A stretch of 64,000 bases of DNA, taken from the NCBI RefSeq assembly GCF_963675165.1, contig NC_087377.1, positions 16,906,518 through 16,970,517 on the forward strand, written 5' to 3'. Within the stretch, counting starts at the first letter, position 1. Each line of letters opens with the position of its first letter. The stretch comes from Halichondria panicea (taxonomy: Eukaryota > Porifera > Demospongiae > Suberitida > Halichondriidae). Made by a program: the position numbers and the translations under genes. Under the pieces are notes generated by a model. It was given only the letters and a program-made list of their open reading frames with translations. It ran no database searches and was not told where the DNA came from. This document shows, piece after piece, positions 768 to 59,197 of this stretch.

Positions 768-3689
768 ATGTCTGACTATCTCACAATAGCAGATCTAGGA
801 AAACTATACATAGCTACGTTTGATGCTCGAATCAAGTGGAGAAACTTCTTGCTGGTTCTTGAGGTATCCTCTGATACCATCGACAGCATTGGTACAAAAT
901 GGCAAAACAATCCTGATGACTGCTATCGTGAGGGTTTGAAAGAATGGCTGAAAGGTGGTGAGAGAAGCTGGGAAGATGTTGTCAAAGCTTTGTCAAGTCC
1001 TATTGTGGGCCACGTTCACATAGCCAGGACCATCGAGAAAGATCATCTACAGTCTACTGATGCAAGCAATCCTACTGATGTGAAGTCAGAGGGTAAGCAC
1101 TAGTTCAGCACAGGAATCATACAGTCATAATGCTTAGTTCGTTAGCTGCTATAATATTCACCCCCCCCCCACACACACACACACATATACACACACACCA
1201 CACACACACCCACCCACACACACACACACACACACACACACACACACACACACACACACACAATGTTCTACAGTTGACCAAAATCACCAGGATATCAATG
1301 ACGATTTGACTGTTTTCCTAGACCAACGACTTGGTAAAGGTGCATTTGGAGCAGTCTTCAAAGGCAGCTACAAGGGCGAGATTTGTGCAGTCAAAGTGCT
1401 GCTTCACGACGCTATGGAGATGCAGGCAAGTATTTCAATCGGCAAAAACGAAGAAGCTAGCGATGCAATTGATCGTGAAAGTGATTTTCTCAAGTCGTTC
1501 CAGCACCCAAACGTTGTTCAGTTTTTGTCGACAGCCAAGCACCCCAAATCAGGGAGTACAATCCTTGTTGTTGAGCTGATGGATTGCAATTTGAGATCCT
1601 ATTTCTCCAGCCTTGATGAAGAGTCCCTCACTAGCGAATGTGAAATTAGCCTCTCCAATGACATGGCTTGTGGTCTGGCCTACATTCACAGCAAGCAGAT
1701 TATCCACCGTGACCTCTGTGGTGATAACGTCTTGCTGAAGCTTACACGACCAGTGCCTGTTGCAAAGATATCCGACTTTGGCATGTCACGGCTATACGAT
1801 CCCTCCAAGCTTAGCCACACCCTCACAGCCATTGGTAACCGTATGGGGTATCTACCTCTCGAGGCTATTCGATTGGACAAGGATAATTACGATAATAGCT
1901 TGGATGTGTTCTCTCTTGGGGCAATTATGATGCAGATTGTTTGCAAGCTGAAGACGATCAAATCTGTGGAAGATCGATCATTCCATGTTGCCCAGATACC
2001 TCACACACACAGGTTGAGGAAGCTTATCGACAGTTGTTTGCAAGAAGACATGAGGAGGAGACCATCTGCCAGGGACATCTGTGAGTCAATGATAAGTATA
2101 TTATGTGTTTTATTCAGCTAACTGTAACCCTAACGAAAAAATCATATCCGTCTATTAATGTTGGTATCGATTTTAGATACTTACCTGACAACAAGCTCGG
2201 ACCCAGTGGAGGCAACAAAGAAGGAGTCAAAGGACACTGAACAAGTCAAGAAGGTGCATACATGTAGTGTGATAATGAGATTCCCACAGCAACAATAGTA
2301 TTGTACCTTAACATGCATGGATGCTGTCTCATGTGTTAAGCCGTAACTATACACATCCGTTTGACTGTGCCTATAATTATGTACTTCATTTAGTGAAGAT
2401 TATCTCGTTCTGTTGTAGAATTTCCACTAATGATATTCACGCCTGTGTTTTAGATTTCCACCAACGTTTCCCTGTACAGGCGCACAAGGAACAGACTGAG
2501 CACAAAGATGCTGAGCTGGTCAGGAGAGACGCCATCATTCAACAGCAGAGACAGGTGAGACAAAATGCACCATTATATTATTGCAGAGCTATAGTAGAAG
2601 CTTTGATCTCTTATAATCGTACTGTACATTCTATTAGACTGGTGGGCGTGGCCTCTTAAGCTAATTAGAGAAAGTGATTTAGTGTGCATGCAATTATTGC
2701 TACAAGTAACACTCACTTGTTAGTAGACACTATCCTAATTACACTCATTCATTATTCAGGGTCCCCCTCCCAGAGAGTTGAGACTTCCACTCACTCTGAA
2801 ATGGAGAAGAGGAAAAGACATGCCAATCAAGATGGGTTCCACGGTACAGAGTGTTGTTATCGGTGACACGGTGTATGTTGGTGGAGGGCGTGCAGGCAAT
2901 GATCGTGACAAGTGTACAGTGATGAAGCTCGAGCAAGATCAATGGACCAAACTACCAGAGTACACTGCCAAGTGGTTCGCTATGACATCACTCGCTAATC
3001 GACTAGTGCTGGTGGGAGGACAGGATCCAAGAAACAACAAACGCACCAATCAGCTTGCAGTTTTTGAAGCAGGGGAATGGACTCACCCGTACCAACCAAT
3101 GAACATTGCTCGTTGTTCCTCAGCAGCTGTCTCCTTCAACAACCACATCATTGTAGCTGGTGGGTATGATGATAAAGGACGTACCTCCTCTGTGGAGGTG
3201 TTGGATGTGGCATCAAGAAGATGGTACATTGCTCAGTCACTACCTAACCCACGATCAGATCTGAAATCGACTCTCATAGGAAACACCCTCTTCCTAATGG
3301 GAGGGTGGGATCACACTGTGAGTAGTTCAACCAAGACAGTGCATCACGCCGACCTCGATGAACTCATTGCAAATGCCCTTTCCAACATGGACACACCCAC
3401 TCTCTGGCAGACCTTACAGGAAGTACCACTCGAGTGGTCAGCTCCTCTCAGTATTGGGAGGTCACTATTAGCCGTTGGTGGAGCGGACGACAGATTCAAC
3501 CCAAGTTCATCGATCCACCTCTACCAGCCTGACACCAGGAGGTGGGTGAAAGTGGGAGACCTGCCTACTGGACGATACTACTGCACATGCTCAGTACTTC
3601 CTAGTGGAGAGGTCATTGTAGCCGGAGGACAGACATATTCATTTGTTTATATTCAAACTGTTGATTTCTTCTTTATAAGTGCTAATTAG
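768..3689 (+). CDS. Unit 1: Death domain - TKL kinase - coil - Kelch protein (class I)
   Basis: Five coding exons with matching phases: 768-1092, 1274-2080, 2177-2253, 2480-2554, 2760-3689, giving about 737 residues. The first exon is a Death domain (about residues 5-100; KWRNFL, SWEDVVKALSSP, IARTIEKDH). The kinase has its glycine loop at 129-136 (GKGAFGAV), Lys149, HRDLCGDN from 253 and DFG at 276, so the catalytic set is complete; PLE replaces the usual APE. A 26-residue linker and a 25-residue charged coil (HKDAELVRRDAIIQQQR) follow, then six Kelch repeats with six double glycines. Death plus TKL kinase is the IRAK/Pelle layout; a C-terminal propeller on it is unusual. The start is the first ATG after a good acceptor (CTCTACAG), so a non-coding first exon probably lies upstream. 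No signal peptide or membrane segment is visible. Role in ligand-sensing signalling is inferred. Confidence 0.85.
1160..1263. repeat. CA microsatellite in unit 1 intron 1
   Basis: An interrupted (CA)n tract with some C runs fills the end of the intron between the Death and kinase exons. The same intron carries CA tracts in units 2 and 7. Confidence 0.9.
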
Positions 3690-3888
3690 TTATTTTGTTA
3701 ATTGTTTCTCTTTAATTGTGCGATGAGTTTATAACGATATTGTTTATCATGTTGAGAAAATTAAGTTGCAACAGAATTTTATCACATAATTATAGTTATT
3801 ATGATGACATGAAGTGGTACATACATAATTACATTGCCAGAAAATAGTACAAAAACAGACAAAATAATATTTAACAGTCTCATAACAA

Positions 3889-58900: not shown

Positions 58901-59197
58901 GACACACCCACTCCCTGGCAGACCTTACAGGAAGTACCACTCGAGTTCTCAGCTCCTCTCAGTATTGGGAGGTCACTATTAGCCGTTGGTGGATGGGACG
59001 GAGACAACTCAAGTTCATCGATCTACCTCTACCAGCCTGACACCAGGAGGTGGGTGAAAGTGGGAGACCTGCCTACTGCACGAGAGTGCTGCACATGCTC
59101 AGTACTTCCTAGTGGAGAAGTCATTGTAGCTGGAGGACAGACAGCAATTAATCATTATATTCGAACTGTTGATTTCTTCTCTATAAGTGCTAATTAG
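55977..59197 (+). CDS. Unit 7: Death domain - TKL kinase - long linker - Kelch protein (class I)
   Basis: Exons 55977-56301, 56481-57278, 57408-57763, 58000-58074, 58280-59197, phases consistent, about 823 residues. The Death domain is intact (KWRNFLLVLKIPSDTIDSIG). The kinase keeps GKGAFGAV, AVK, HRDLCGDN and DFG, but the activation segment differs from other class I copies (IDHRKGYLPLEAPQRNYDNS, three residues shorter). The linker exon is 356 bp, against 77 bp in units 1, 2 and 5. It contains two versions of one motif (SGTVEATKRESKDTQ and SDPVEATKKESKDTK) separated by a charged, Gln-rich stretch, so the short linkers look like deletions of this form. The Kelch exon is open with six double glycines and private variable residues. 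Confidence 0.85.
56396..56468. repeat. CA microsatellite in unit 7 intron 1
   Basis: (CA)n with one AGTGA interruption, in the same intron position as in units 1 and 2. Confidence 0.92.

Follow-up and report, generated by a model that had tools for sequence, protein, structure and literature searches.

What could cause seven neighbouring exons, little different from one another over most of their length, to differ in almost every copy at a limited set of codons, and what might such a pattern serve? The question is raised by a stretch of 64,000 nucleotides of the Halichondria panicea genome (131.5 Mb in 39 contigs), namely positions 16,906,518–16,970,517 of contig NC_087377.1 (here C1), referred to throughout as the window, in which seven gene units each carry an exon encoding a Kelch propeller. 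According to the original prediction, made from the sequence of the window, the variable codons lie on the ligand face of the propeller and reflect diversifying selection on a binding surface. That claim is supported here as well as sequence from a single genome permits; beyond it, the present analysis found the signalling modules attached to the propellers, the size of the family to which they belong, and exchange of sequence between its copies.

Selection on the Kelch codons

The seven Kelch exons all have open reading frames and were confirmed at the places given for them, on the forward strand at window positions 2760–3689 (unit 1), 8526–9449 (unit 2), 14100–15032 (unit 3), 20575–21510 (unit 4), 28648–29580 (unit 5), 50543–51457 (unit 6) and 58280–59197 (unit 7); that of unit 1 comprises six blades, each with a double glycine (GG), and has hypervariable codons in its loops. 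The residues that had been read off for units 1 to 7 match the alignment in every series: Y, E, C, R, R, C, H after the GG of the third blade; C, D, D, D, S, N, E after NIAR or NIPR; W, W, Y, W, Y, N, F after the GG of the fourth blade (LMGG); A, R, R, E, A, R, W after AVGG; the pairs YY, YH, SC, YS, YC, CR, EC before CTCS and EW, VG, VR, VF, VW, VW, EF before SAPLS; and the triplets GST, RDS, GTT, GTS, GYS, DAS, GDD between KM or IM and VQS. The anchoring motifs quoted with these series hold overall, but at two of them unit 3 has VADG and unit 7 has LIGG, and the triplet of unit 2 is preceded by IM.

The sample used for tests of selection consisted of 70 intact Kelch exons, the seven of the window and 63 others, which form part of the family; removal of three identical sequences left 67 unique exons, aligned over 306 codons. 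Two broken copies (L013 and L025) were excluded, together with one partial copy (L024) and one edge-cut piece (L015) of a copy already included. The site-wise comparison of non-synonymous and synonymous rates that had been proposed as a check was run using our own FUBAR-like grid of synonymous (alpha) and non-synonymous (beta) rates, with a limit of 15, rather than HyPhy or PAML, and a codon was called positive where P(beta>alpha) exceeded 0.95.

Under a single-ratio model the ratio of non-synonymous to synonymous change (omega) is 1.58, with a log-likelihood of -14100.0 as compared with -14138.2 at omega 1. Site by site, beta exceeds alpha at 41 of the 306 codons, 32 of them in the propeller and nine in the tail beyond the last GG; because the alignment of the tail is uncertain, its columns were omitted from the tests of location described below. 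At sites 27, 44, 51, 88, 119, 136, 167 and 246 beta is at or near 15 and alpha is at most 0.4; alpha is also raised at other positive sites, for example 226 and 242. Taken over the 18 most variable sites, the 70 exons present 61 distinct combinations, and unique exons differ from one another at a median of 14 of the 18. The residues enriched at these sites are phenylalanine (6.2% vs 1.2), tyrosine (7.3 vs 2.6), tryptophan (4.8 vs 2.3) and arginine (12.4 vs 5.6).

Position of the variable sites on the propeller

Positions on the propeller were expressed as offsets relative to the second G of the GG in each blade, two loops per blade being defined as offsets -17 to -15 and +1 to +8. These loops make up 57 of 289 positions, and they contain 30 of the 32 positive propeller sites, with two lying outside (Fisher p=1.1e-22), so that the sites do recur blade by blade, as had been claimed, and are clustered in the loops instead of being scattered over the fold. 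Offset +1 is positive in all six blades, offsets -16 and -15 in five of six each, and offset -17 in two of six; a further 12 sites come from offsets +3 to +8.

The obvious standard of comparison is KEAP1, the sequence of which was verified for this purpose and the numbering of which we take to start, in the form used, at residue 321. Its residues at offset +1 are Tyr334, Phe478, Tyr525 and Tyr572; at -16 they are Ser363, Asn414, Ser508 and Ser555; at -15, Arg415, Gly462 and Ala556; and at +6, Arg483, residue 530 and Phe577. In PMC6891428, inhibitors of the Nrf2 site are described as making contact with these residues. When offsets -16, -15 and +1 are taken across the six blades, 16 of the 18 positions are positive, against 16 of the 271 elsewhere (p=1.1e-15), and at +6 the figure is two of four; the equivalence with KEAP1 contacts, which had been suggested from a few tyrosines, finds support in this sequence register.

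Since the Kelch copies recombine (see below), the codons were also refitted using separate trees for four segments, and the signal persisted, with 31 positive sites, 25 of them in the loops, and 13 of the 18 KEAP1-register positions; the corresponding refit on one tree, over 290 codons, yielded 38, 32 and 16 of 18. The six GG motifs are in register, and the propeller would be closed by an N-terminal strand. Given this register with KEAP1, the hypervariable loops are likely to constitute the binding face.

Neutral yardsticks and controls within the same genes

Two neutral yardsticks are provided by the intron preceding the Kelch exon, for which diversity is 0.051 (32 units aligned over 193 columns, 18 of which are exon bases), and by the fourfold sites, for which it is 0.043–0.049. 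At the 18 most variable codons diversity is 0.51, 0.58 and 0.21 at positions 1, 2 and 3 respectively. As that set was picked for its variability, a fairer figure is obtained from the 18 KEAP1-register codons, which were fixed beforehand: here the values are 0.42, 0.47 and 0.20, as against 0.05, 0.05 and 0.06 for the other 272 codons. It had been claimed that the changes fall in codon positions 1 and 2, and for the most part they do, but position 3 clearly takes some share; synonymous divergence is nonetheless nowhere near as high as non-synonymous, silent diversity being about tenfold lower.

Further controls come from the exons upstream of the Kelch exon, which encode a death-like domain and a kinase (kinase A) in genes of class A, and a second kinase (kinase B) in genes of class B. 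For kinase A (10 copies, after exclusion of the rows with stops, L021 and L025) omega is 0.455 and one of 274 codons is positive; for kinase B (eight copies, seven unique) the figures are 0.18 and none of 191, and for the death-like exon (12 copies) 0.44 and two of 108. The Kelch exons of those 10 class A genes give an omega of 1.96, with 27 of 290 codons positive and 25 of these in the loops, and those of the eight class B genes give 1.63, with 16 of 290 positive, all 16 in the loops. Kelch and kinase were thus measured in the same genes, and the contrast between them is therefore not due to sample size.

Gene anatomy and signalling modules

Two of the seven units are intact genes, the exons of which join at GT-AG boundaries in a single frame with no internal stop. 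Unit 1 (768..3689, forward strand; class A, 737 amino acids) has five exons, encoding a death-like domain (768-1092), kinase A (1274-2080), a linker (2177-2253), a short coiled coil identified by eye (2480-2554) and the Kelch propeller, with Pfam matches to kinase and Kelch. Unit 3 (11679..15032, forward strand; class B, 801 amino acids) has seven, comprising kinase B over three exons (11679-11789, 11861-12430 and 12682-13008; Pfam match to kinase), a coiled coil, again by eye, over two (13075-13329 and 13419-13565), a small exon at 13832-13894, and the Kelch exon. The remaining units, all on the forward strand, are represented by individual exons. In units 4 and 6 the class B kinase exons were located by sequence match, at 17831..19549 (17831-17941, 18026-18598 and 19223-19549) and 48126..49460 (48126-48236, 48316-48888 and 49134-49460) respectively, and unit 7 (55977..57283) has a class A death-like exon at 55977-56309 and a kinase A exon at 56477-57283. 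In unit 2 the reading frames of the death-like and kinase A exons (6558..7900) are both broken, as seen from split matches and from reading in three frames, while in unit 5 the class A kinase exon is represented by its 3' part (27445..27990, matching residues 99-280 of the query), the 5' part not having been found by the search; in both of these units the effector exons are damaged and the Kelch exons are open and divergent. In units 1, 2 and 7 the class A kinase exon is immediately preceded by CA repeats (window 1170-1262, 6967-7075 and 56396-56468). A shared split death-like match and a shared shortened kinase match occur at C1 15.73, 15.96 and 16.91 Mb, the last of these places lying in the window.

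Among 20 long loci, class A exons are present in 11, class B exons in five, and a third class, C, in four (L010, L012, L016 and L018), where the upstream region is without kinase A or B and contains an exon of unrecognised family open over 384 codons. This helical module occupies the same position ahead of some Kelch exons, to which it would be joined. It was suspected by eye of being a CARD, a suggestion that found no support from Pfam or from a PDB profile.

Both kinases match Pfam PF00069 (129.4 bits for unit 1, 110.6 bits for unit 3), with HRD and DFG motifs visible, and are only 30-36% identical to each other; the best PDB match of both is an EGFR-labelled chain, and IRAK4 is among the PDB matches of kinase B. 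The three Kelch exons scanned (units 1, 2 and 4) match PF01344, PF24681, PF13964 and others over the curated cut-off, whereas BTB, BACK, NACHT and NB-ARC gave no Pfam match among the exons scanned. Six death-like exons were compared with Pfam Death, of which three matched below the cut-off (L009, E=9.3e-4, 19.7 of 22.6 bits; unit 7, 0.043; unit 1, 0.091) and three (L021, L028 and part of unit 2) did not match; the best PDB profile match of the death-like exon is FADD (E=0.0072). The highest 19-residue hydropathy means are 1.25 for unit 1 and 1.48 for unit 3 (in the kinase part), values low enough that these two modelled proteins would be expected to be cytosolic.

Size of the family and exchange between copies

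A protein search, starting from 460 first-look candidates, resulted in 126 scored Kelch exons with 82-100% identity to unit 1, 123 of them without an internal stop and three with one. A 26-base motif of the Kelch exon has 171 matches in the genome at three mismatches or fewer (87 forward, 84 reverse), as compared with 0 for the control. Among the 100 of these 171 matches that were listed, the main clusters are at C1 15.48-16.14 Mb (reverse strand), C1 16.71-17.39 Mb (forward strand, containing the window) and contig C6 0.46-0.80 Mb, with small groups also outside these three. Among the module matches listed, hand counts gave 109 matches to kinase A of at least 200 residues at 78% identity or more (of 138), some on other contigs; 48 to kinase B at 84% or more (of 150), three of them short, with stops or outside the clusters; and 14 near-full-length matches to the class C module at 86% or more (of 118). 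That these also total 171 is a coincidence of cut-offs, but set beside the Kelch count they do suggest that most Kelch exons have a module.

Several results speak of exchange. In the pairwise homoplasy index (PHI) test the observed value was lower than that of any of 500 permutations, with or without the selected codons, and association between sites weakens only a little as they lie further apart, being 0.26 at up to 30 bases and about 0.2 beyond. At conserved codons the Kelch distance between classes A and B is 0.0393, as compared with 0.0390 within A and 0.0382 within B, the values for class C Kelch exons being larger, 0.0525-0.0544; on this measure the two unrelated kinase classes A and B draw on one Kelch pool. 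No difference separates the Kelch exon of unit 5 from that of L065, which lies in the opposite-strand cluster 1.25 Mb away, and L004 resembles a mosaic, with four of 71 differences from L024 and nine from unit 1 at its front, and 14 of 78 from L024 and four of 77 from unit 1 at its end. Two exons from C6 differ from their nearest C1 copies at about 7-8% of conserved positions and at 13-15 of the 18 variable sites, and the same pattern of variability is seen in both.

Arrays of more distant relatives were also encountered. Kinase exons with about 45-52% identity to kinase B are densely arrayed outside the Kelch clusters, at C3 0.87-1.71 Mb and C11 4.4-6.5 Mb; divergent relatives of the class C module form arrays at C5 2.73-3.18 Mb, C9 3.80-4.00 Mb and C4 6.32-6.43 Mb; and at C12 5.90-6.14 Mb death-like exons form an array, with 42-52% identity to the one in unit 1.

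What the family might be for

The reading we prefer, and regard as reasonably probable, is that the family consists of clustered, probably cytosolic recognition receptors resembling NLRs, in which Kelch sensors are mounted on exchangeable signalling modules; it is preferred because clustering, diversity of the face, constraint on the signalling modules and exchange between copies are found together. Each gene would combine a conserved module (death-like domain with kinase A, kinase B with a long coiled coil, or the third, helical module) with one C-terminal six-bladed Kelch propeller, and each copy would bind a different ligand on its hypervariable face. Binding might then assemble the death-like or coiled-coil parts and so activate the kinase, which would signal defence or cell death. 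Sensor faces would be spread and reshuffled through duplication and gene conversion, with selection retaining new specificities, and the selecting force would most likely be fast-changing non-self, pathogens in the first place and conspecific tissue in the second. A bolder and distinctly more tentative proposal, which may well prove too strong, is that a propeller-based repertoire evolved in an animal separately from NLRs and antibodies. Duplication and gene conversion would set Kelch exons from a shared pool, each with its own combination of residues at 18 or more positions of the face, into three or more modules, and copies whose effectors are damaged would be kept as donors of faces.

A number of points weigh against the receptor reading. 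The sequences compared are paralogues of one genome rather than alleles, and some distinct exons are identical at all 18 variable sites. The loop bounds were chosen after the sites had been seen, only the KEAP1 offsets being external, and each refit leaves six positive sites beyond the loops, out of 38 when one tree is used and out of 31 when four are. The death-like assignment is weak, the class C exon has no Death or CARD match in Pfam or by PDB profile, and its joining to Kelch is read solely from position. Finally, the effector exons of units 2 and 5 are damaged, and therefore not all copies can be working receptors.

Comparison with known systems is instructive. The NLR repertoires of animals and plants are clustered and modular, with a sensor under diversifying selection, and in these respects the present family is like them; unlike them, it has no NACHT or NB-ARC match among the exons scanned. 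With KEAP1 and its KLHL relatives it shares the Kelch motifs and the GG register, judged by sequence, and the hypervariable offsets are those of the KEAP1 ligand contacts; however, KLHL proteins carry BTB-BACK, for which the exons scanned gave no match, and here there are kinases instead, with extreme variability in a large family. The family resembles the IRAK/Pelle and RIPK kinases in the death-like domain next to the kinase in class A and in having IRAK4 among the PDB matches of kinase B, but it differs from them in its variable C-terminal Kelch propeller, in a death-like call that is sub-threshold and in a best kinase match labelled EGFR. The closest likeness is with the fungal NWD/HNWD proteins (het-d and het-e of Podospora anserina), a family of 10. 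As PMC1805685 describes, diversifying selection in that family acts on four codons of each WD40 unit, which lie in the loop from strand d to strand a (d-a loop) and in the b-c turn, and its paralogues undergo concerted evolution. Selection at those two places (here located by KEAP1 register), a homogenised scaffold and exchange between paralogues are common to both. Against this, the propeller is Kelch and not WD40, its six differing blades lie in a single exon instead of being tandem near-identical repeats, there are kinases but no NACHT match among the exons scanned, and there are about 170 copies rather than 10. Because WD40 and a NACHT match are both lacking, the family would work like NWD without being a member of it.

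That same analogue lends some weight to a different purpose. If the face served allorecognition or gamete recognition, separating conspecific individuals, its ligands would be polymorphic self proteins, as for fungal het-d and het-e; in the nearest documented analogue, which has its role in allorecognition, variation falls in the same two loops of the propeller (PMC1805685), and the present repertoire is clustered and has many face combinations. We nevertheless consider this unlikely, though a serious competitor, as the two modelled proteins look cytosolic, an arrangement better suited to fused hyphae than to contact between animal tissues, and some 170 copies per genome would seem to exceed the needs of a matching locus. 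It is a good deal less plausible that these are kinases with interchangeable propellers recognising many endogenous substrates, and not non-self. Kelch domains do often select substrates, and different modules here have the same type of sensor, but endogenous substrates would favour a stable specificity, whereas silent sites are nearly homogenised and face codons about tenfold more variable.

A mutational hotspot, or hypermutation targeted to the loop codons, in place of selection, we judge very improbable, although some codons do appear to invite it: the third base is fixed at site 27 (C in 67 of 67) and at site 46 (C in 66 of 66) while positions 1 and 2 are scrambled, and in simulations at beta 15 (200 runs per site) third-base changes were too few at 27, 46 and 51 (P 0.010, 0.000 and 0.015), or at beta 5 only at 46. 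However, at sites 88, 183, 189, 226 and 242 such changes exceed those of most simulations, and with this mixed outcome there is no common third-base deficit over the 18 sites. Targeting would, moreover, have to strike matching loop positions in six differing blades while sparing neighbouring codons, and intron and fourfold sites show no excess. Ordinary mutation with selection is enough to explain the loop codons. A mechanism like that of diversity-generating retroelements, or other targeted mutagenesis, had been considered on account of the fixed third bases, and was set aside after these simulations. Relaxed constraint in decaying duplicates can hardly be entertained for the family as a whole, for although the effector exons of units 2 and 5 are damaged, three of 126 Kelch exons have a stop and two more copies are broken, the scaffold codons are conserved, the attached kinases have omega 0.18-0.46 and variability is limited to the loops.

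A search of the open-licence literature, preprints not included, found no paper on a hypervariable Kelch-kinase family, which is weak evidence of absence. If the receptor reading is true, this would be a large animal recognition repertoire on a fold without such a role in the literature searched, one that has converged on the non-self receptors of fungi down to small details, and it would open to testing the long-standing question of how lineages without antibodies produce many specificities. The face positions are known precisely enough to permit ligand screens and the sequencing of populations.

Other features of the window

Three further features lie in the window. An open reading frame (ORF) at 23147-23656, between units 4 and 5, matches the RAG1 importin-binding domain (E=3.9e-9) and overlaps a stretch of 34 bases duplicated perfectly in tandem (23603-23671). 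A second ORF, on the reverse strand at 39712-40518 and located between units 5 and 6, contains a PHD finger (E=1.1e-5), and a tandem repeat of 66 bases overlaps it. Lastly, a tandem array at 35933-37201, with a period of 99 bases and higher periods of 306 and 405 bases, overlaps an open frame of 360 codons.

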